DNA from: a bacterium
Lineage (GTDB): Bacteria > UBA10199 > 2-02-FULL-44-16 > JAAZCA01
Direction: 5' to 3'
DNA length: 64,000 nt
NCBI GenBank assembly: GCA_021810905.1
Contig: JAJZQH010000002.1
Location: 1 to 64,000, forward strand
The position numbers and the translations under genes are program-made. Under the pieces are notes generated by a model. The model did not search any database and was not told where the DNA came from. It saw nothing but the letters and a program-made list of their open reading frames with translations. Shown here piece by piece: positions 557 through 17,688 of the stretch. Each line of letters starts with the position of its first letter. Positions within the stretch are counted from its first letter, which is position 1.

Positions 557-1507
557 TTATAGCAAAAAATCATGCATTTTATGGAGATTTTTTAGGTCCT
601 GGCCGAAGGGTGTAATTATGCCAAAGGTCTTGGAATCAGACTCTTGCTTTAAATTATATTTCAGAAAAGTCGCGAGCGTCCCGGACGGTCCGAGGTCAAT
701 ATATATATAATTATTATTTTGTTCCAACGCGCGAACTGCCTCTTGAAACTGGATCGGCTTTCTCACTATCTCCCAGAGATAAGTGTCGGAAATATCCGCT
801 ATCTCTTTGCCATAAACCCCTGATATAAAACGTTTTTGTGGCTTCTCAAAATCCTTCTGCGCCAGATAGTTTACAAAGGTATAGCCGGCGGGTTCGATGA
901 GCGATGAATGAAACGCCTGTAAGACTGGAAGGAGTTGATAATTAATGCTTTTCGCCTTCAGAAAAGCGATGATATTTTTTAAGCTGTCATCATTGCCGGA
1001 AACCACGAAATGCGAGTCGAAATTGATACCTGCCAATTCGCTATGTTCGCATAACATCGCTTCATTATAATAGAGCGCTGGTTTCTCGAGAATGGCGAGC
1101 ATCCCGCCTTTTGGGCAAAGCTCCAATGCCTGCGCCTGTTTCATAAGAATATCAATTATGCCTTCCAGTTCCATGACCCCGGAGCACGCTGCAGAGGCAA
1201 ACTCACCCATGCTCGAACCAAAGACATAATCGGGCGTGATCCCCTCGTCCAGCAGCACCCTAGTGAGCGCCATCTCGACCATGAAGATCGCGGGGTGGGT
1301 GTAGAGCGTGCGGTTGAAGAGCTCGCTCTTCTTTTTTGCCTTGGAATAGATCTGATCGATGACCGATTCCCCTATTATTCCAGAGACGATATCATTAAGA
1401 AAAAATATCTGCTCGCGAAAGAGCTGATGATTCTCAAAGAGGTCACTCCCCATGTGGAAATATTGCGACCCTTGGCCCGAATACATGAAGATGATTTTTT
1501 GAGGCAT
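557..1507 (-). CDS. Stand-alone acyltransferase (FabD/PKS AT family; possible acyl hydrolase)
   Basis: 316 aa, the full size of a malonyl-CoA:ACP transacylase-fold protein. It opens with the family motif YSGQGSQ (about residues 9-15), has the nucleophile elbow GSSMGE near residue 96 and the catalytic His in QAFHSSLIEP near 200. Such discrete acyltransferases load acyl-CoA units onto carrier proteins of trans-AT polyketide synthases. Aligned by eye, the Arg that binds the malonyl carboxylate (usual context LRAKL) appears as Gln (KQAQAL), a change associated with trans-acting acyl hydrolases that clean stalled synthases rather than load malonate. The gene starts 1 bp after the metalloenzyme stop, so the two are translationally coupled. 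Confidence 0.85.
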   Translation of the reverse strand: MPQKIIFMYSGQGSQYFHMGSDLFENHQLFREQIFFLNDIVSGIIGESVIDQIYSKAKKKSELFNRTLYTHPAIFMVEMALTRVLLDEGITPDYVFGSSMGEFASAACSGVMELEGIIDILMKQAQALELCPKGGMLAILEKPALYYNEAMLCEHSELAGINFDSHFVVSGNDDSLKNIIAFLKAKSINYQLLPVLQAFHSSLIEPAGYTFVNYLAQKDFEKPQKRFISGVYGKEIADISDTYLWEIVRKPIQFQEAVRALEQNNNYIYIDLGPSGTLATFLKYNLKQESDSKTFGIITPFGQDLKNLHKMHDFLL

Positions 1508-2425: not shown

Positions 2426-2541
2426 TTCCCCTCCTATGTTAGGAGGGGCCAGGGGAGAGGTAGATCCAGGATCTACCCCCTCCAACTCCCCCTTACAAAG
2501 GGGGAGGGTTCACGTCTCCTCCCCTTACAAAGGGGAGGAGT
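2426..2541. repeat. Palindromic element copy 2 (overlaps 3' end of PPTase gene)
   Basis: Composite palindrome: an outer CCCCTCC...GGAGGGG hairpin, the GGGGAGAGGTAGAT / ATCTACCCCCTCC pair, then two successive CCCCTTACAAAGGGG hairpins. The right-hand hairpins run into the downstream end of the phosphopantetheinyl transferase gene and provide its last codons and stop. Confidence 0.85.
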
Positions 2542-3296
2542 AATCTCTCAGCATCAAAAAATCTCTTCGTCACGTTCGTTCGATTCGCTGAGACGACCGC
2601 AGCGAAATAGTCGTCCGCCGGTGAAAAAGAATCGATCTCCCATTGTTTCATCAGTCCCGGCCTCCCCGCGGATATAAGCTCGAGCGGAACGCCGTCCGGT
2701 GACAATGAAACTTCAATATCTTCCAGCCCTGACAATCCTTCTCCGGTGGCCTTCAAATACGCTTCCTTGATGGTCCATATCGTAAAAAACATCTCCTGTT
2801 TTTTTGCCCCTGATGAAGCGTTAACGAGGCGGTATTCGCGCTCGGAAAAAAACCGCCTCGCAAGACCCTCGACGTCTTCTATAGACCTCGCGCGTTCCAC
2901 GTCGACCCCGATCGGATGGTCTCGCGTAAAAGCATACAGGACAAGCTCATGGGAATGCGAGAGGCTGAAAGAAATTCTCCCTGCTTCAGCGCCATCATCG
3001 ATTTGCGGTTTGCCGCGCGAGGTATAGGTAAATTTTATATCTTCGGATTTCTTGTCGATGTAACGCGCGAGGATCTCGCGCAACATCCCCCTGCCTGCGA
3101 TGAAACGCCTTTTGTCCCTGTCAAAATGAAACCTGCCTGCCCTTTCTATTTCATCCGGAGAAAGTATTTTCGACAGCTCAGCCATCTTTTTTTCCTGCAC
3201 ATCGAGAGAAGACTTCCAGATATGGATTTCATTATCAGGTAAACGACTGGGTGCCTCGGGCTTGTCCCACGATATTTCGTATTTCATCATCGACAT
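2493..3296 (-). CDS. 4'-phosphopantetheinyl transferase, Sfp type
   Basis: 267 aa. Sfp-family signature: the Mg-binding GVDVE (about residue 125), a FFSEREY stretch and WTIKEAYLKATGEG with the catalytic Glu/Lys. It transfers the phosphopantetheine arm of CoA to acyl or peptidyl carrier proteins, and its place at the head of the ketosynthase/acyltransferase run fits activation of those carriers. The last ~18 residues (LLLPFVRGG, then a Pro-rich end) are encoded by the palindromic element, whose TTTGTAAG provides the TAA stop; the native C-terminus was probably a little different. It is divergent from the biotin ligase gene with 30 bp between starts. The start is the first Met; no strong ribosome site is visible. 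Confidence 0.9.
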   Translation of the reverse strand: MSMMKYEISWDKPEAPSRLPDNEIHIWKSSLDVQEKKMAELSKILSPDEIERAGRFHFDRDKRRFIAGRGMLREILARYIDKKSEDIKFTYTSRGKPQIDDGAEAGRISFSLSHSHELVLYAFTRDHPIGVDVERARSIEDVEGLARRFFSEREYRLVNASSGAKKQEMFFTIWTIKEAYLKATGEGLSGLEDIEVSLSPDGVPLELISAGRPGLMKQWEIDSFSPADDYFAAVVSANRTNVTKRFFDAERLLLPFVRGGDVNPPPL

Positions 3297-3326: not shown

Positions 3327-4064
3327 ATGAACAGGATTCATTTCCCATCTATCGATTCAACGCATGATTACGCCATTCAGAATGGACGCAATTTTCCGCA
3401 CTGGACAGTCGTCACTGCCGATTTTCAGACAAGCGGCCGCGGCCGTGGAAACAGGAGCTGGATCTCGCCGCCAGGCTCAGGCCTTCTCTGTTCGATCGTC
3501 ATAAGAGAGCCTCTGCAGGCAGCGCAGCTTGCCTCCATAATTCACGTCATGACCGTATCTGTGGCCGGCTTCATTGAAAGCTGCGGTATGACGCCGGAAA
3601 TTATCTGGCCAAACGACGTTCTCGTAGGGGCAAAAAAAATTGCCGGGGTCATGGCACAATCTGTGGCCGGCGGAGGCGTATCGGATCTTGCCGTGCTGAG
3701 CGCCGGCATAAATATCAACCATGATATGGAAGCGCTGCGGGCTATCGACAGGCCTGCCACCTCGATTTTTGTCGAGACCGGGATAAGGCATGGCGCTCAG
3801 GAACTCCTTCCGCAATTTCTAAATTGTTGCAAAAAATTCTATCACATCTTCAAGAAAGAAGGCTTCGCCCCTATCATGGAACTTTGGAGAAAATGGGAGA
3901 TGCTGACCGGCAAGAGGGTGATATTTGACTCTGGAACCGATTTAATCGGGGGTACTGTTGCTGGGTTCGACGACGACTGCGCAATACGCATCGCCGATAT
4001 GGCTGGTTCGATCCGAACGTTTCACAGTGGCGAGATCAACAGGCTTGTCATAACGAATACTTAG
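3327..4064 (+). CDS. birA: Biotin--[acetyl-CoA-carboxylase] ligase, class I
   Basis: 245 aa. Biotin protein ligase catalytic core: GRGRGNRSW (biotinyl-AMP loop, residues ~37-45), WPNDVL, then KKIAGVMAQ with the catalytic Lys, and a small C-terminal beta domain. There is no N-terminal helix-turn-helix, so this is a monofunctional ligase and not the E. coli-type repressor. The only biotin acceptor seen here is the carboxylase two genes downstream (Lys in ESMKME), its likely substrate. It is followed on the same strand by BioY, so uptake, attachment and use of biotin are co-located. Confidence 0.93.
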   Translation: MNRIHFPSIDSTHDYAIQNGRNFPHWTVVTADFQTSGRGRGNRSWISPPGSGLLCSIVIREPLQAAQLASIIHVMTVSVAGFIESCGMTPEIIWPNDVLVGAKKIAGVMAQSVAGGGVSDLAVLSAGININHDMEALRAIDRPATSIFVETGIRHGAQELLPQFLNCCKKFYHIFKKEGFAPIMELWRKWEMLTGKRVIFDSGTDLIGGTVAGFDDDCAIRIADMAGSIRTFHSGEINRLVITNT

Positions 4065-4106: not shown

Positions 4107-4658
4107 ATGATTAATTCTAATACGCTCACGTATCGCAATATTATTAATACACGAACTCTCTTCTGGTCGACGATGAGTCTTGCATGCGCTTTTCTGGTCG
4201 GCCTCAGCGCATGGGTCAGGATCCCAATGCCGGGTACGCCCGTGCCGGTGACCCTGCAGACCTTCGCCCTTCTCGCTTCCGCAGGGGTACTTGGAAGGTA
4301 TTATGCGGTTCAGATGGCCGCATGGTATATTTTGCTGGGCCTGGCGGGCCTACCTTTCTTTTCAGGGGGTTCGGGACTGGCCCATCTAGCAAGCCCTACG
4401 GGGGGTTATATTGCAGGATTTCTCATGGCCGCCGGCATCGTTGGTTTTTTGGATTCCAGCTCAAAGAGGTGGTATGCGCGCATGCTGGTATTCATAATTG
4501 CGACAATAGCAATTTACGTACCAGGCCTTGTTCAGCTCCATCTCGCAACCGGCTTCAGCTTGCGCCAGACAGTAGCAACCGGATTTATTCCCTTCATTAT
4601 ATATGACATAATAAAGGCACTGGCCGCCTGGAGGATATCCAGCGCGATTCGTCATTGA
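4107..4658 (+). CDS. bioY: Biotin transporter BioY (S component)
   Basis: 183 aa, almost all hydrophobic, with about six membrane helices and family features: a Pro-rich PMPGTPVPVTLQTFA stretch after the first helix and the GLPFFSGGSGLAHLASPTGG motif. BioY captures biotin either alone or with an ECF energizing module, which is not encoded nearby. GGGGGG lies 8 bp before the ATG. It sits 42 bp after birA and just before the acyl-CoA carboxylase. Confidence 0.93.
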   Translation: MINSNTLTYRNIINTRTLFWSTMSLACAFLVGLSAWVRIPMPGTPVPVTLQTFALLASAGVLGRYYAVQMAAWYILLGLAGLPFFSGGSGLAHLASPTGGYIAGFLMAAGIVGFLDSSSKRWYARMLVFIIATIAIYVPGLVQLHLATGFSLRQTVATGFIPFIIYDIIKALAAWRISSAIRH

Positions 4659-4660
4659 GA

Positions 4661-4694
4661 TCTACCTCTCCATCCCCTCCTTACAAAGGAGGGG
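4661..4694. repeat. Palindromic element copy 3 (half copy)
   Basis: Contains the TCTACC...CCTCC half followed by the hairpin CCCCTCCTTACAAAGGAGGGG, between the bioY stop and the carboxylase start. It would form a strong hairpin in the intergenic mRNA. An upstream in-frame ATG at 4655 would translate the repeat and is not favoured as a start. Confidence 0.8.
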
Positions 4695-4717
4695 CTAAAG
4701 AAAATGGCAGGTTGACG

Positions 4718-7700
4718 ATGCATAAGAGCTACGGCGAAATACGAAAGAAGATAAAGCGCCTGCTCATAGCAAACCGCGGAGAGCCTGTGATGAGGGCCAT
4801 CCGCACTTGCAAGGAGCTGGGCATCGAATCCGCGGTCGTCTACTATGAAGTCGACGCGTTCTCAGACTGGGTCTTTACGGCGGACTTCGCCTTTGAACTG
4901 GAACGCACGGACGCGGATGTCGACTCCCCTTACCTGGATGGAAAACAGATCATAGAAATCGCCAGATCGCGCAACTGCAACGCAATCTGGCCCGGATGGG
5001 GCTTTCTCTCCGAGAACGCGGAATTCGCCGAGCAGGTCGCTGCAGCCGGCTTGATCTGGGTCGGGCCGCCTCCCAAAGCGATGAGGGAACTCGGCGGAAA
5101 ATCCGAATCGCATTCCGCCGCAGTGCGCGCGGGATTCGATACGATCGAGCAGATCCTGGTGACGGACTCCGACAATCTCGACCGGATTAAGGGGCTCGGT
5201 TTTCCCCTCGTGATCAAGCCGGTCTATGGCGGAGGCGGACAGGGCCAGAAAATCGTCACTGAAGACGACGACCTCACCACCGCCATCAACGACTCCATAC
5301 GACAGGCGCAGACGCTCTTTGTAGATGGAAGCCTCATCGTGCAGAAATACCTTCAGAAGGCCAAGCATATCGAACTGCAGATGATCGGCGACACGTTCGG
5401 CAACGTCTGCGTCCTGGGCACAAGGGACTGTTCCATACAGCGGCGCAACCAGAAGATCATCGAGGAAGGACCTGCACCCAACATTGATCTGGAAGCCCTC
5501 AAGCGCCCATCTGAAGCAGCCGTAAATCTTTTCCGCGATTCCGGATATTTCAGCGCGGGAACGATTGAGACTCTCTATTGCGACGGGAAGTTCTATTTCC
5601 TTGAGGTAAATGCCAGATTGCAGGTCGAGCATCCCGTAACTGAAGAGAGCACGATCATATGCGGCGAGGGGCATAGCGGCAGGCCGGACATGCTTGCGGA
5701 AATGCTCAGCATCGCCGCTGGAAATCCGCTCACCTTCACGCAGGAAATGGTTTCTACCGATAGATGCGCGATAGAAGCGCGATTATACGCCGAGGATCCG
5801 GACAAAGGGTTCCAGCCTACGCCGGGTTCGATCTACCTGATAAGATATCCGCGAGGATCCGACGTGCGCGTCGATTCAGGCATCGTCGGACACGCTGGAG
5901 AGATCCTGAAGGATTTCGATCCCATGTTCGCCAAGATCGTTACGTGGGACGTCGACAGAAACAGGGCGATAAGAAAACTTCATCGCTATCTGCGCGACAC
6001 GATCATACTCGGCATTCATACGAATATCGATTATCTCAGGCGCATCACCGCGCACCCTAATTTTCTTTCCGGCGATTACGTCACAAGGTTCATTGCCGAC
6101 TCGGGTCGAGAACTCGCTCCTTCGCTCGGCAAAAAGCATTTTGCTTCGACAATAGCGTCGACGCTCGGCTACATCGATGCCCATAAGCAGGCGTATGCCG
6201 AATTGAAGGGCTCCAGCGCGCACTACATTGACATGGCGATGAACATCCTCCCCGAGGGATCGATAAGCTACATCCTAAAACTCGGAGACGATAATTATTC
6301 GTGCATCGTCAATGAGTGGAATGACTCGCGTTTCTTCGTAACAAGCGGCGACAACTGCACGCTGCTGGATGTATCGCAGATCGACCCGAACGTTTATTCT
6401 GTCAGGGATTCAACCGGAAGAATCTATGAGGTCTTTGCATTCACCGAAGCAAATGAAATCCAGATGATGCTTGACGGAGAGCAATACATATTCGGCATCG
6501 CCAGAGAAGGCGCCAAAGACGAGATCAAGGACCCTCACGCGACTCCATACGGCGGAAGGATCGTGCGCCTTTGTGTGAAGGCCGGCGATCCCGTCAAGGC
6601 TGGAGACGATCTCTACGTCATAGAATCGATGAAGATGGAGACGATTATCAGGGCTTCATTTAACGGTATCGTCGAGAACACGTGTTTCTCCGCGGGGCAT
6701 GCGGTTGAAGCCGGCGACGTAATTATGCGCATAGTCCCTCTTGAAAAAATCGAGGAAAAAAAGGCGAAAATAGATTATGTCGCTCCGCCGGACGATCAGG
6801 ATCCGCTCCTCGGCAGCATATTTCTATCGAAAAACAGTAATTCGTTAATTTCCGAAGAACATAATGAGCTCTACAATAAATATCGGTATATCCTGACTCA
6901 GCTTCCACTGCTTTATTTTATCGGATATAACATCACGGCCGCGGCGGCCATGACTTCGTTCGAGATTACCGCTCGGACAGCGCCTGAAAAAGCCGTCTCC
7001 ATAATCAAAGACGTTGTGCACGCCATGATAGCCATCTGGAGGTTATCGGACGACGACATGTCCGATTATCTCATCGATTACATAAGGCGCCACGCGCTTC
7101 CGGATAATCAGAAATATTTCGGAAACCTCCTTTCGGAAGTGCTGTCGTGCTATGGAGATCCAAACACCAGAAATTTTGAAGAAGCCGACAAACACATGCC
7201 CAGAATCCTGCTGGGCATGAGAAGGTCTGGGCCGAAGCAGCTGGAAATGATCATCGACATGATAGACCACTCTATCGCCAACTGCTCCGACAAGGCGGAG
7301 CTTGCCAAGGCGACGGCTTCATTGATCAGCTCCGGCATCCTCGATCAAGAGGAAGTTCTTAAGCATGACGCTACGATGATATTGTCGGAGTTGCACAGCC
7401 TTGAATATTACAAGACTGTTCAGCCTCCAGTCGCTATGGATTACCTCTCCGAATACGAGGACTTCCAGATCACGCCGTTGGCCGGTCTGACGCCCGAAGA
7501 TATCGGCAAGATGCGTTATTGCGTCGAAAAAGACAGCGAATGCAAGCCGTCGGATTCCGGCTTTGAATTGCCGGACTGGCTGAAATCATTTTTTTGCAGA
7601 TGGTTCGAAGGATTCGGCGTAAGGGAATTGTATGTCAATCCCCGCGCTGAAAAATTCGGTATCAAAATTTTCGAGCTCTGCAACAGCTCAGATGCAAAGG

Positions 7701-10282
7701 ACAAGCGGCTGGCTGTAATAGGGTTGCTTAAAACCGACGACATCGTCGTGGATGGCGAGGGCAGCGCCGCGGCTATTGAAAAAATTATATTGGAAGCTCA
7801 CAGATGCATCAGCCAGTATGACCTGCTTGGCGATGATTATAAGATAAATCACGTCTTTTCCGTGTTCCCCCCCGAGATCATGTGCAAATGGGAATCCGGC
7901 AGGGGCGGCTTCCGGATCAACTCATCTATCATCAAGGATTGCTCCGCGCGCATAGCAGGTTTCATAAGCGGTACGCGCGTATTCGCAAACGAACTTCTTT
8001 TGAATCTGGAAATAGGGGGCAACAGTTTTTATCATATCATAGAAATTCAGCGAGTGACTTCCGGAAGAATAGTCATCCGGCCTCCCTACCCTATATCAGA
8101 ACGAGTTCCGGAACTGGCGAAGCAGGAAGTCGCATATCTCAATGAAAAGCAGCATATGCGCGGCAAGCTCTTGAACGTCGACAGGGCGAAACTATTGTTC
8201 GACGGCGGCAACTACGAAGAACTTTTTTTCCCTGAAGTGGATGGAGGCGGTACTCCAATAGGCCTTAACGTATACCGCGGCAATATCAACGGGACGCCGG
8301 CCCTTGCTTATGCCGGAGATTTCAGAATCCGCGGAGGCGCACTTGGGACCAGGGAGGGAAAGAAGCTCGCGGCGACCGTCGTTCTCGCTTACGTCTGGGG
8401 CGTGACCCTTATCGGTATTCACGATGGAGCAGGCGCGGACATCAAGGATTCCGTGGCGTCGCTAGGCTGGGCGGGCGCATATTTCGGAGCGATCGCAAAC
8501 ACCGGCGGTTTTTCAAATCCAGGAAAGTTCTGGGAATGGTACGATGAGCACCTCGAGCGCAAATACTTCGATACGGTTCTGCGCCATTTTAACGTGCGTC
8601 CTCACAGACATGAAAAACTGGACGGAGACTGGAGCCAGGCGGGAAGCAGGTTCCTACACCTACACCTCAATATCGGCGCTTCAGTGGGAATGCTCGTCTA
8701 CGGAGCGGCGATATCGGCCATGTCCATAATGTCGGTTCATCCTGAAGTTTACAGGGTGCTCACTGGCGCTCAAACGGTTGAGAAGGTATTGGGAGAAAGA
8801 GCGACCAATTACGAACTCGGGGGGGCGAGAACCCACGCACGCTATTCCGGCGACATAGACGTAGACTGCCCATCCGAAGAAGACGCCATAAGAAAGGCCC
8901 GCCTGTTCGCAAAGTTCGTAATGACCAATCGCGACCGCCATGCGAAACACTGGTCGAGGGGTGGAGATAAAGCCCTTTTTTCAAAATGTACCGCTTATTC
9001 CAGGTCCGCTCATCGCAGCAAAATCATCTGCACGTTCGACGAAGGCAGTTTCATCGAAACGCGGAATAAACTGAAAGGCGCCAGCCAGCTCATGACTGGG
9101 TATGCCTCGATCAAGGGCTCGCCCTTCGGTATTGCAGCGCAGCTTTCCAAATACGGCATCAGAAATCCCAGGACGCTCAAGAAGTTGCTCCTGCTCTTTG
9201 CCGGATGCCAGGAATTCGGACTTCCGCTCGTCATGATCACCGTAGAAAGCTGGTATGGCATACCGCCCAAGTCTCCTCCGAAGACGATGTATTTGAGATC
9301 CGAATGCGACCTGATGTTTTCAAGCATCTCAGTGCCCCGCATATCGATAGCGATCGGTCCGAGGTCGCTCGATAAATTTGTGCACCAGAACTCGGATCTC
9401 TTCTTCTATGTGGTAGACGGTACGGAGACTCCGTTCGATTTGACCAAAGTTGACATAATGTCTCACCTCCAGTTCCAGGATCTGGAATCGTGCATGGAGA
9501 CGGTGGCATTTCTGCTTCCCTATCTCACAAAGAAGGAAGTTCACGCACCCGGGGCTTCGCATCATTCTCCAGTGCGTTTGCCGGAGAGCATGGATACTCC
9601 GTATGATATGAGAGAGGTGCTGCCGCACATATTCGATGAAGGCAGTTTCATTGAGCTTCAGGGAAAAGACGCGCTGCCTCTTGTTACCGGCTTCGCAAGA
9701 GCTGGCGGTCACGCCGTGGGCATAATCGCGGACAACCCGATAATCGCAGGCGGCGCACAGACCGCTTTCTCGCTCGGCAAATTCACCAGATTCAATCGCA
9801 TCTGCGAAAAATTCAACATACCGCTGATCGAATTCAACGACAGCCCTGCATTCCAGCCTGGAAGCAAGCAGGAGCAGATGGGCATACAGGGCGAAGGAGG
9901 AAAGTCGCTGAGGGAAGAATGTCTTGGCAGAATTCCGCGGCTCTCGGTGACGCTGCGCCAAAATTATGGAGGCAGGTTTATCCATGCAAACTTGAAGACA
10001 CTTGGGCCAAACAGGGCGGCCCTTGCTTGTGAAGGTTCGAGAATTGGAGTGATGGGTGCGGGCGGGGCGATTTCAGTCCTGCACGGCCGGAAGCTCAGCA
10101 GTCTTTCCGCCGACGAAAAAAAGGCGGAAGAGGTGAGGCTGAAAGATACATATATCCGCGATTATCTCAGCCCGGAGAAGGCCCTGCAGCTGGGCTATAT
10201 AGACAAGATCATTCCGCTCGACAGGCTCATGACCGAAATCCACAAGTGGCGAAGCGATGTCATCAATCTGCTGAAGAAATAG
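4718..10282 (+). CDS. Single-chain multidomain acyl-CoA carboxylase
   Basis: 1854 aa. Residues ~12-480 are biotin carboxylase (LLIANRGEPVMRAIRTC; ATP-grasp loop KPVYGGGGQGQK near 168; LEVNARLQVEHPVTE). Residues ~600-675 are a biotinyl domain with VIESMKMET, biotin-Lys at 639. Then about 450 residues of unrecognised helical sequence resembling in position the central region of eukaryotic ACC, and a carboxyltransferase part from ~1140. The reaction is ATP-dependent carboxylation of an acyl-CoA, probably acetyl-CoA to malonyl-CoA. The carboxyltransferase part seems to hold three crotonase-like segments (~1147-1400, ~1438-1600, ~1637-1850) where two are usual. Start at 4718 (MHKSYGEI) chosen because the longer reading runs into the palindromic repeat. 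Position after birA-bioY supports the call. Confidence 0.93.
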   Translation: MHKSYGEIRKKIKRLLIANRGEPVMRAIRTCKELGIESAVVYYEVDAFSDWVFTADFAFELERTDADVDSPYLDGKQIIEIARSRNCNAIWPGWGFLSENAEFAEQVAAAGLIWVGPPPKAMRELGGKSESHSAAVRAGFDTIEQILVTDSDNLDRIKGLGFPLVIKPVYGGGGQGQKIVTEDDDLTTAINDSIRQAQTLFVDGSLIVQKYLQKAKHIELQMIGDTFGNVCVLGTRDCSIQRRNQKIIEEGPAPNIDLEALKRPSEAAVNLFRDSGYFSAGTIETLYCDGKFYFLEVNARLQVEHPVTEESTIICGEGHSGRPDMLAEMLSIAAGNPLTFTQEMVSTDRCAIEARLYAEDPDKGFQPTPGSIYLIRYPRGSDVRVDSGIVGHAGEILKDFDPMFAKIVTWDVDRNRAIRKLHRYLRDTIILGIHTNIDYLRRITAHPNFLSGDYVTRFIADSGRELAPSLGKKHFASTIASTLGYIDAHKQAYAELKGSSAHYIDMAMNILPEGSISYILKLGDDNYSCIVNEWNDSRFFVTSGDNCTLLDVSQIDPNVYSVRDSTGRIYEVFAFTEANEIQMMLDGEQYIFGIAREGAKDEIKDPHATPYGGRIVRLCVKAGDPVKAGDDLYVIESMKMETIIRASFNGIVENTCFSAGHAVEAGDVIMRIVPLEKIEEKKAKIDYVAPPDDQDPLLGSIFLSKNSNSLISEEHNELYNKYRYILTQLPLLYFIGYNITAAAAMTSFEITARTAPEKAVSIIKDVVHAMIAIWRLSDDDMSDYLIDYIRRHALPDNQKYFGNLLSEVLSCYGDPNTRNFEEADKHMPRILLGMRRSGPKQLEMIIDMIDHSIANCSDKAELAKATASLISSGILDQEEVLKHDATMILSELHSLEYYKTVQPPVAMDYLSEYEDFQITPLAGLTPEDIGKMRYCVEKDSECKPSDSGFELPDWLKSFFCRWFEGFGVRELYVNPRAEKFGIKIFELCNSSDAKDKRLAVIGLLKTDDIVVDGEGSAAAIEKIILEAHRCISQYDLLGDDYKINHVFSVFPPEIMCKWESGRGGFRINSSIIKDCSARIAGFISGTRVFANELLLNLEIGGNSFYHIIEIQRVTSGRIVIRPPYPISERVPELAKQEVAYLNEKQHMRGKLLNVDRAKLLFDGGNYEELFFPEVDGGGTPIGLNVYRGNINGTPALAYAGDFRIRGGALGTREGKKLAATVVLAYVWGVTLIGIHDGAGADIKDSVASLGWAGAYFGAIANTGGFSNPGKFWEWYDEHLERKYFDTVLRHFNVRPHRHEKLDGDWSQAGSRFLHLHLNIGASVGMLVYGAAISAMSIMSVHPEVYRVLTGAQTVEKVLGERATNYELGGARTHARYSGDIDVDCPSEEDAIRKARLFAKFVMTNRDRHAKHWSRGGDKALFSKCTAYSRSAHRSKIICTFDEGSFIETRNKLKGASQLMTGYASIKGSPFGIAAQLSKYGIRNPRTLKKLLLLFAGCQEFGLPLVMITVESWYGIPPKSPPKTMYLRSECDLMFSSISVPRISIAIGPRSLDKFVHQNSDLFFYVVDGTETPFDLTKVDIMSHLQFQDLESCMETVAFLLPYLTKKEVHAPGASHHSPVRLPESMDTPYDMREVLPHIFDEGSFIELQGKDALPLVTGFARAGGHAVGIIADNPIIAGGAQTAFSLGKFTRFNRICEKFNIPLIEFNDSPAFQPGSKQEQMGIQGEGGKSLREECLGRIPRLSVTLRQNYGGRFIHANLKTLGPNRAALACEGSRIGVMGAGGAISVLHGRKLSSLSADEKKAEEVRLKDTYIRDYLSPEKALQLGYIDKIIPLDRLMTEIHKWRSDVINLLKK

Positions 10283-12480: not shown

Positions 12481-13878
<1,398 letters not shown>

Positions 13879-15532: not shown

Positions 15533-15855
15533 GGAACCCTCCTGTTGGGCAAACACTGAATGTTGAATTGACCCGGCGTATAACGTCGTGCAATTTCAAT
15601 TGCAACGCAAATTCGATACTAACGGAGTAATTCCTGTCATTCCAGTCGAACAGATGTCCCTTCGGTGTCTATGCAACGGTTCCATCTTTTCCTGGTCGAT
15701 TATTGACGCTTATTATCATTTTGAGCGTTCGTCCCACAAAATCCGCATCAGACTCACCAGTAACATATTGATTTTCAATGAATTATCTTTATCCGACCCT
15801 GGTACATTACTTGCTAATTAAATGGTGTGGTGCAGTATCCCTTGAGGAGGTCGAA
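15533..15855. other. Divergent intergenic region, no gene seen
   Basis: 323 bp between two divergent genes, AT-rich toward the right. It contains a short dyad ATTGATTTTCAAT near 15769 but no promoter of good quality on either strand, and no reading frame with coding character. Confidence 0.5.
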
Positions 15856-17688
15856 ATGACTAATATCTCCAAGAACTATTCGTGGCGGGCAATGTGCATT
15901 TCCATGGCAATCGCTATGGTCACGCTCTCGGTCACGTCCTGCAACAAACAGGGTGGCGAAGGCGCTTCTACAGCATCTACAATATCGCCGCCTGCCAGCA
16001 GCTCGGGACCTGCAGTTGCAACGCCTGCGGAAGAAACTGAGGCGGAAATTCCTTCTGTCGCGCTCAAGCTCGTGCGGGCTGACGGAGTTGAGATTGATTT
16101 ATCGAGCAAACCGATTCCGCTCAGCGTCTCGGTCAAGGCCGTTTTCTCCGCAGCCATGGACAAGCAATCGGTAGAATCGGCCGCGTCACTGGTCGATCCT
16201 GACGGGAAACCAGTCGACGGCGCATTTTCGTGGAGTGCCGATGATAAAGAAATGAGCTTCGCACCAAATAAAGCTCTCAAATCAAAATCGACGTATGCTT
16301 TCAATATCTCCGCAGATGCTGTTTCTGCCGCTGCAAAACCGATCGAGGCGGTCGAACAGTCGTTTCTAACTATGACAGAGGGCGATGTCACCGGCGATGG
16401 ATTCCCTGATTTTCTCGTCGGCTCGCCTGGTTACAACGCTAATTCGGGGGCTGCGATTCTCTACAGCGTTGAACTCGATTATAACAACAAGATCAGCGAC
16501 AAGCCGATCACAACCATTGTCGGTGTAAAATCAAATTTTGATTTTGGAAAGGCGGTCGCAGTTGCCGGCGATCTGGATGCTGATGGATATGCGGATATCA
16601 TCGTCGGAGCGCCTGGAACCGAGGATTCGAACAACAACGCGACAGGAGCTGTGTACTTCTTCAGCGGCCGCCACTTTTCCGGGAAGGAAAAAACGGTTGA
16701 GCCGATCACAGCGGCTGAAGAGGCCGACGTTATAATCTACGGTAAAATCGATAATCAACGCTTCGGCGGATCGCTGCTCGGCATTGGAGATATAAACGCA
16801 GACGGCTTTGGAGAATTTCTCGTGGGCACGCCGCAGTTGCTCGTCCCTCCTCAAGTCTATGTATTCATCGGAAAGAAACTCACGGCCATGAAGGCAATGA
16901 CTACAGACGACGCTTCGTCTAACGTTGCCGGAGAGGACAAGAGCTTATTCGGCCATTCGATGGCAATGGCAGGCGACGTTGATGGCGATGGAATTGATGA
17001 AATCATCATTTCCGCTCCGTGGAAAGAGAAGGTCTATCTCTTCAAAACGAACGCTCTAAAGGACAATATCGATGTAGCTTCTGCAATATGCATGATCGTT
17101 GGCAACCCTGGGCAGCTGTTCGGTAAATCGGTCTCAGCGGCTGGAGACCTGGACGGTGACGGTTTTGCCGACATTCTGATCGGCGCGCCTGGATTTATGG
17201 GCCCGCTCTCAAATGGGGCCGCATACGTCTTCAGCGGTAAAAAAATATCCTCTTCCAAGCAACTGGGAATCAATGACAGGATGGTTCTATATATCGGTGC
17301 GAATGAAACAGATTTTCTTGGCTTTTCCGTAGTGGGAGGAATGGACATCAATGGTGACGGGAAAAAGGACATCGCACTTGGGGTGCCGGGTAATCCTGGA
17401 ACAGGCATAAATGGAAAGGGGATGGTCCTATATCACAGCGGCGCTGACCTCAATGGTCAACCGTTAGGGACTACATATGGTCTCGCGCCAAACGACAGGT
17501 TCGGAAGCGTTGTAACAACGCTGGGAGACTTAACAGAAAAAGGGAAGGCTGTTATTGTGGTTTCGGCGCCTGGGCACAACAGCGGCACTGGTAATGTAAA
17601 AATATTTGTGCCTGGAGCAGTTTCTACTCTGAGCGGAACTGCTTCTGGAGATGCGTTTGGTGAGGCAATCTCCGCGGACATTCGCTGA
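15856..17688 (+). CDS. FG-GAP beta-propeller lipoprotein with Ig-like N-domain
   Basis: 610 aa from the ATG at 15856, with GAGGAGGT upstream. Signal peptide with lipobox LSVTSC, then an Ala/Ser-rich linker. Residues ~75-170 resemble a bacterial Ig-like (Big_5) domain (AVFSAAMDKQSVESA). The rest is seven FG-GAP repeats, each with a DxDxDG-like calcium loop and a D(I/F)L(V/I)G(A/S)PG end, for example GDLDADGYADIIVGAPG; together they should form a seven-bladed integrin-alpha-type propeller. The last repeat (GDLTEKGKAVIVVSAPG) has lost the calcium ligands. Probably a surface or periplasmic binding protein; ligand unknown. Confidence 0.9.
   Translation: MTNISKNYSWRAMCISMAIAMVTLSVTSCNKQGGEGASTASTISPPASSSGPAVATPAEETEAEIPSVALKLVRADGVEIDLSSKPIPLSVSVKAVFSAAMDKQSVESAASLVDPDGKPVDGAFSWSADDKEMSFAPNKALKSKSTYAFNISADAVSAAAKPIEAVEQSFLTMTEGDVTGDGFPDFLVGSPGYNANSGAAILYSVELDYNNKISDKPITTIVGVKSNFDFGKAVAVAGDLDADGYADIIVGAPGTEDSNNNATGAVYFFSGRHFSGKEKTVEPITAAEEADVIIYGKIDNQRFGGSLLGIGDINADGFGEFLVGTPQLLVPPQVYVFIGKKLTAMKAMTTDDASSNVAGEDKSLFGHSMAMAGDVDGDGIDEIIISAPWKEKVYLFKTNALKDNIDVASAICMIVGNPGQLFGKSVSAAGDLDGDGFADILIGAPGFMGPLSNGAAYVFSGKKISSSKQLGINDRMVLYIGANETDFLGFSVVGGMDINGDGKKDIALGVPGNPGTGINGKGMVLYHSGADLNGQPLGTTYGLAPNDRFGSVVTTLGDLTEKGKAVIVVSAPGHNSGTGNVKIFVPGAVSTLSGTASGDAFGEAISADIR

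Follow-up and report, generated by a model that had tools for sequence, protein, structure and literature searches.

What can a third crotonase-like segment be doing in the carboxyltransferase (CT) of a single-chain bacterial carboxylase, and where could it have come from? To our knowledge, all known carboxyltransferases of this superfamily have two crotonase halves per active unit, and a literature search returned no papers on three-crotonase carboxylases or on pseudoenzyme CT domains. The question is raised by one gene of the window (the whole stretch of DNA that was analysed, 64,000 nucleotides), in which a reading from the sequence alone, the original prediction, had placed an additional segment between the two expected halves of CT. 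The three segments are called N, M and C below, in their order along the chain, and their coordinates are collected in Table 1 with those of the other features discussed.

Table 1. Position of the carboxylase, its parts and the related features in the window and in other genomes of the phylum.
Feature	Location	Strand	Basis or remark
Single-chain acetyl/acyl-CoA carboxylase, 1854 aa	4718..10282	+	Open ORF; Pfam BC, biotinyl and Carboxyl_trans domains
Biotin carboxylase (BC) domain, residues 10-460	4745..6097	+	PF00289, PF02786, PF02785
BT-like region between BC and BCCP, residues 461-605	6098..6532	+	Alignment position; BT named by position only
Biotin carboxyl carrier domain (BCCP), residues about 606-675	6533..6742	+	PF00364, E 6e-14
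Central non-catalytic region, residues 691-1143	6788..8146	+	Lies between BCCP and CT N-half
CT N-half (N), first crotonase domain, residues 1144-1403	8147..8926	+	Carboxyl_trans 3.6e-25; hhalign to PccB N-half 99.9%
CT middle segment (M), degenerate crotonase-like, residues 1433-1603	9014..9526	+	Profiles, models, tree
Linker M to C	9527..9604	+	Alignments
CT C-half (C), last crotonase domain, residues 1630-1854	9605..10279	+	Carboxyl_trans 2.4e-40; hhalign to PccB C-half 100%
bioY, biotin uptake protein	4107..4658	+	PF02632, 5.8e-36; directly upstream of carboxylase
birA, biotin-protein ligase	3327..4064	+	PF03099, 1.1e-15
Sfp-type phosphopantetheinyl transferase (PPTase)	2493..3296	-	PF01648, 4e-21
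Stand-alone malonyl-CoA:ACP acyltransferase (FabD / trans-AT type)	557..1507	-	PF00698, 5.6e-33
PKS-like frame, 6068 aa, open at contig start	G000:C8:1-18204 (L060)		Window's genome; four KS, plus KR, DH, ACP
Fungal-type type I FAS, 3147 aa, G007	L053:6071-15511		Directly upstream of homologous carboxylase gene
Fungal-type type I FAS, 3309 aa, G023	L054:5773-15699		Directly upstream of homologous carboxylase gene
Separate CT C-half ORF, 226 aa, G020	L039:10255-10932		ATGA overlap with upstream stop; PYDMR linker lost
Eukaryote-type ACC, G014	L044:2759-10426		PF08326; nine other genomes likewise

Organization of the carboxylase

The reading frame runs uninterrupted from the ATG at 4718 to the stop codon at 10280-10282, and encodes the 1854-residue enzyme that had been predicted. 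From the N- to the C-terminus, Pfam matches and alignment give the order BC, BT-like region, BCCP, central region and CT, the BT part being assigned by position only. The BC domain is 30-53% identical to its homologues, keeps the motifs RDCSIQRRNQK and EVNARLQVEHPVTEE, and matches PF00289, PF02786 and PF02785 above cut-off, so that the ATP-grasp and BC motifs of a biotin-dependent acyl-CoA carboxylase are all present; the BT-like region that follows is poorly conserved (14-35% identity). In BCCP, VIESMKME stands at residue 634 with Lys639 as the predicted biotinyl-lysine, and the Met-Lys motif is invariant across the aligned family, as in a biotinyl carrier domain. The central region has no convincing match in Pfam or among PDB sequences; a remote profile match (hhalign 89.6%, E 2e-6) links its first ~145 columns to the N-terminal central region of an acetyl-CoA carboxylase (ACC) of the eukaryote type from a bacterium of the same phylum.

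In CT, the Pfam Carboxyl_trans matches are split over three separate stretches instead of forming one, and three crotonase-like segments can be delimited. N bears the acyl-CoA-side motifs HDGAGADIKDSVASLG and GASVGMLVYG, and C bears the biotin-side motifs NDSPAFQPG and RQNYGGR; an N-type and a C-type half, with both catalytic motif sets, are thus in place. The linker between M and C holds PYDMR, the canonical N-to-C linker motif, which extends into the start of C. The original prediction had set its feature to begin at 8158, which falls about four codons inside N, and to end at what is the stop codon. Its two FDEGSFIE segments, estimated at residues ~1438 and ~1637, are found at 1440 and 1639, and the other motifs that it named (VLGERATNYELGGARTH at 1357, ASIKGSPFG at 1463 and DLTKVDIMSHL at 1574) were likewise recovered within about two residues.

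The middle segment as a domain

M is a real domain. Used alone, its profile matches PCC-beta chains (E 9e-22), and in 9/9 aligned proteins its ~170 residues follow collinearly after a complete N-half; C comes after M in all nine except for the split gene of one homologue (G020). The structure prediction and the profile searches proposed with the original prediction bear out a third crotonase-like segment in this single-chain CT. Searched segment by segment, N, M and C each match PccB-type CT halves. In the AlphaFold model of CT, which like that of M alone was built on five sequences and so on shallow alignments, the blocks of M lie mostly at pLDDT 70-86 in a crotonase-like order of strands and helices, and the N-half is poorly modelled, with many residues at pLDDT < 50. 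M modelled alone has a mean pLDDT of 76, and a Foldseek search with this model hits CT crotonase domains, PCC-beta among them, at probability 1.00, with TM 0.64-0.69 among the best matches; the repeated beta-beta-alpha core of the crotonase fold is therefore present in predicted M. A fold with two crotonase domains only and the middle segment as a linker, the outcome that was to count against the claim, was found neither in the CT model nor in that of M alone, each of which has a crotonase-like core.

At the aligned positions M has neither the N-type (GGAR/GPCAGG) nor the C-type (PGF.PG/YGG) catalytic motifs; in place of DSGGARIQEG and GPCAGG (N-halves) or PGFLPG and YGG (C-halves), it reads VESWYGIPPKSP and IGPRSLDKFVHQ. 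Within the close family, GxRSLxxxVHQxxD, a Trp, Lys-Lys and GxE are invariant in M. The G020 gene is divided precisely at the boundary of M and C, where stop and start overlap as ATGA; this shows that C can be its own chain, with M remaining on the chain that carries N. M is most likely a non-catalytic structural domain, and its role is most likely that of a spacer or scaffold, which would position N from one chain against C from another when the oligomer is formed. Since crotonase folds bind CoA, M could be thought to bind a CoA ester, the more so as the invariant residues of the close family show no free drift. However, both known CoA/oxyanion motif regions are lost from M and the conserved residues could equally serve packing, which makes CoA-ester binding rather unlikely.

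Origin of the middle segment

M does not resemble the same half along its whole length, being C-like up to about residue 1538 (base 9331) and N-like from residue 1539 (base 9332). In hhalign comparisons the front scores 84 against C-half fronts (PccB-like) and 54 against N-half fronts, with a shuffled maximum of about 17, and it is 32% identical to the family's own C-front. When the M profile is compared with PCC-beta, the front gains 47.8 bits on the C-half and 23.8 bits on the N-half, and the tail matches the N-half tail weakly. The tail scores 40.7 against N-half tails (shuffled maximum 14.8), and its score of 18.8 against C-half tails is within shuffled noise (maximum 21.2); in single-sequence scores the likeness of M-tail to N-tail is modest (mean 3 bits). 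Across the domain boundaries, the block formed by N-tail, linker and M-front aligns with the block formed by M-tail, linker and C-front over 162 columns (E 1.2e-18), continuously across the linker and with a score of 123 vs a shuffled maximum of 23.

The middle segment had been likened to a degenerate N-half. It is indeed degenerate, and its tail is of the N type, but its front is nearer to the C-half; the plain degenerate N-half was dropped in favour of a hybrid on account of the C-like front, the N-like tail and the block alignment across the linker. The pattern of that alignment is what one in-frame tandem duplication, starting in mid-N and ending in mid-C, would leave, and, as judged from the sequences, such an event would be the simplest origin of M. 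It would have produced the arrangement N-front/(N-tail, C-front)/(N-tail, C-front)/C-tail, in which the duplicated half-domains would together make up a complete but hybrid crotonase fold; M would then have lost both catalytic motif sets and been retained as a non-catalytic domain. In a tree of halves, which has long branches, the nine M segments group together as one clade (98/91) that falls on the side of the C-halves; this fits one event predating the divergence of the lineages. M looks like an old, conserved internal duplication.

M could instead be the decayed duplicate of one whole half, either N or C, and no hybrid at all, which would leave its function unchanged. The M profile matches both PccB halves (N 97.9%, C 98.6%), and the place of M on the C-half side of the tree would suit a copy of C whose tail has changed strongly. 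Such a copy of C is at odds with the tail scores, which are at noise level for C-tails and well above it for N-tails, and a copy of N with the match of M-front to N-fronts, which is weaker than that to C-fronts; the alignment that continues over the linker stands against both, and a whole-half duplicate is unlikely.

Function and genomic context

The window genome, which is 99.5% complete, has no PF01039 or PF02785 locus other than the carboxylase, and neither AccA nor methylmalonyl-CoA mutase was found in it. The position of PccB Asp422, which we take to steer substrate choice, is occupied by Ile in the C-half (alignment with 1xnw, D422I, and 3iav, D422V). Ile is also the residue of 7w5u, a solved beta chain of an acetyl-CoA carboxylase, and of other beta chains named propionyl-CoA carboxylase (1vrg), and is an indicator only. 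The link between residue and substrate is based on the PDB mutant structures (D422I, D422V) and on general knowledge, the literature search having found no paper on the PccB/AccB specificity residue.

Upstream of the carboxylase, birA and bioY lie on its strand, and the genes for the PPTase and the acyltransferase, the latter the sole PF00698 match in the window genome, are divergent. A short inverted repeat (ctccatcccctccttacaaaggaggggct) is located at 4660-4695, between bioY and the carboxylase start. Around the homologous genes, in loci reaching up to ~20 kb, the only relative of birA or bioY to be found is a BirA domain in G010. In that homologue (2458 aa, L040:7636-15009, minus strand) a PF03099 biotin-protein ligase domain is fused C-terminally, and the carboxylase seems, from its sequence, to carry its own biotin-attaching enzyme. 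Other genes of the window encode a beta-eliminating lyase (PF01212; tryptophanase / tyrosine phenol-lyase type) of 460 aa at 12481-13863 on the minus strand and an FG-GAP repeat (integrin-like) protein with a Big_5 domain, of 636 aa, at 15778-17688 on the plus strand.

At the left edge of the window lies the start of a ketosynthase gene, and two further contig ends of the window genome break inside KS starts. The long PKS-like frame of this genome ends in a PF01553 glycerolipid-type acyltransferase and has no AT match. Since the window genome has neither FAS I nor a stand-alone ketosynthase over the whole domain, the sink for malonyl-CoA appears to be a PKS-like megasynthase and not classical fatty acid synthesis. 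In two relatives (G007 and G023), the homologous carboxylase gene is immediately preceded by one for a fungal-type FAS I with the domains PF08354, Fas_alpha_ACP, FAS_I_H, MaoC, AT, KR and KS; PF08354 is present in 13 of the 46 genomes examined from the phylum.

In the proposed reaction, BC would carboxylate biotin on BCCP, and CT would transfer the carboxyl group to acetyl-CoA; the malonyl-CoA so formed would supply an acyl/polyketide megasynthase. Catalysis would fall to the first and the last crotonase domains as a pair, N with the acyl-CoA-side and C with the biotin-side motifs. Acetyl-CoA is most likely the main substrate, given that this is the sole carboxylase, that there is no mutase, that Ile stands at the D422 position, and given the gene context and the FAS I beside the relatives. 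An enzyme acting mainly on propionyl-CoA or long-chain acyl-CoA, for example to make unusual PKS extender units, would accord with a genome that has a multi-module PKS-like megasynthase, a stand-alone acyltransferase and a PPTase but no FAS I. Nevertheless, the malonyl-CoA would have to come from the same enzyme, as no other carboxylase was found in the genome, and the Ile in place of the Asp of PccB, the lack of the mutase and the FAS I adjoining the gene in relatives also make this substrate preference quite improbable. Domain order, the three segments, their conservation, motif loss, the hybrid signal, the status as sole carboxylase and the gene context are computed results. In our judgement the protein is probably the genome's single-chain ACC feeding a megasynthase, with N and C as the catalytic pair and M as a non-catalytic hybrid derived from a mid-N-to-mid-C duplication.

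Distribution in the phylum

M is carried by 10/46 genomes of one small and poorly known phylum, all in one class (E < 1e-55), and the profile score drops from 191 bits to 60 for ordinary PccB proteins. M does change faster than its neighbours (35% identity to L036, vs 58% for N and 52% for C), as might be expected of a linker in decay or of an artefact of assembly or annotation, but M is collinear in ten independent genomes, is monophyletic, has a predicted fold and keeps invariant residues, and either explanation is hardly credible. As a linker only, M is ruled out by the CT and M-alone models, its profile matches and its occurrence in ten genomes; as an artefact, by that same occurrence, its profile matches and its predicted fold. 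Among the ten genomes, the named records of four are uncultured MAGs, three labelled Deltaproteobacteria bacterium and one labelled bacterium. The wider distribution was sampled by two pattern scans; a protein scan of genome contigs found nothing, and an alignment scan with N-half patterns found four relatives. Because the patterns of the latter were limited to the N-half, M may also occur outside the phylum.

The eukaryote-type ACC (PF08326) is found in 10 other genomes of the 46, with no overlap with the three-segment type. The probability of zero overlap is about 0.06 over the 46 genomes and about 0.01 over the 31 with a CT-query match, as calculated by hand from the hypergeometric distribution with relatedness ignored. 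The remaining 15 genomes (G001-G006, G008, G021, G022 and G032-G037) have no CT-query match and no PF00698, which suggests that they are without de novo fatty acid synthesis.

Comparison with known carboxylases

The nearest described relative by architecture is SACE_4237 of Saccharopolyspora erythraea, which has been reported to be the first homodimeric multidomain ACC from a prokaryote and an essential bacterial supplier of malonyl-CoA (PMC6491548). Like this protein and the ACCs of yeast and human, the present carboxylase is one chain with the order BC-BT-BCCP-central-CT (BT by position only), and a part of its central region shows a remote relationship to theirs, via the eukaryote-type ACC of the same phylum. 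It differs from them in that its CT has a third crotonase-like segment and not exactly two halves, its central region is shorter, neither the protein nor the window genome has a match to PF08326 (ACC_central), and its CT sequence is nearer to PccB/AccB-type beta chains than to eukaryotic CT. In yeast ACC, CDC1 and CDC2 may represent an internal duplication, which lies in the central domain and not in CT, and is of a different fold (PMC4833862).

The beta subunits of PCC and ACC (PccB, AccB, AccD5, AccD6), together with transcarboxylase 12S, align end to end with the N- and C-halves, the catalytic motifs being kept, but they are separate two-half subunits, whereas here M lies between the halves and CT is fused to BC and BCCP. 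The LCC-type carboxylase (PDB 4rcn) is also a bacterial single-chain acyl-CoA carboxylase with a related CT sequence; its domain order differs, and we know of no third CT segment in this type. The LCC type and the eukaryote type are regarded as independent fusions (PMC6491548). AccA and AccD of E. coli are the same crotonase superfamily pair in the form of two subunits, and the G020 homologue comes in two pieces as well, the break in its case lying between M and C. Among the 46 phylum genomes no true AccA was seen, the PF03255 matches being weak and falling in PccB-like or multidomain frames.

Significance

That an organism's only carboxylase keeps a third, apparently catalytically dead hybrid domain raises the question of what the extra domain's job is, and the carboxylase with M offers a way to test what it does. 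M may be a new functional module of acyl-CoA carboxylases, that is, a duplication-born hybrid pseudo-CT domain. In bacteria whose ACC goes together with fungal-type FAS I or PKS-like megasynthases, it would provide the enzyme with an allosteric site for CoA esters or with an oligomeric architecture of a new kind, a proposal that we hold with somewhat less than even confidence. The phylum also has eukaryote-type two-half ACCs, in genomes that do not overlap with those of the three-segment type, as well as fungal-type FAS I, and is for this reason a good place to study the rise of multidomain fatty-acid enzymes in bacteria.
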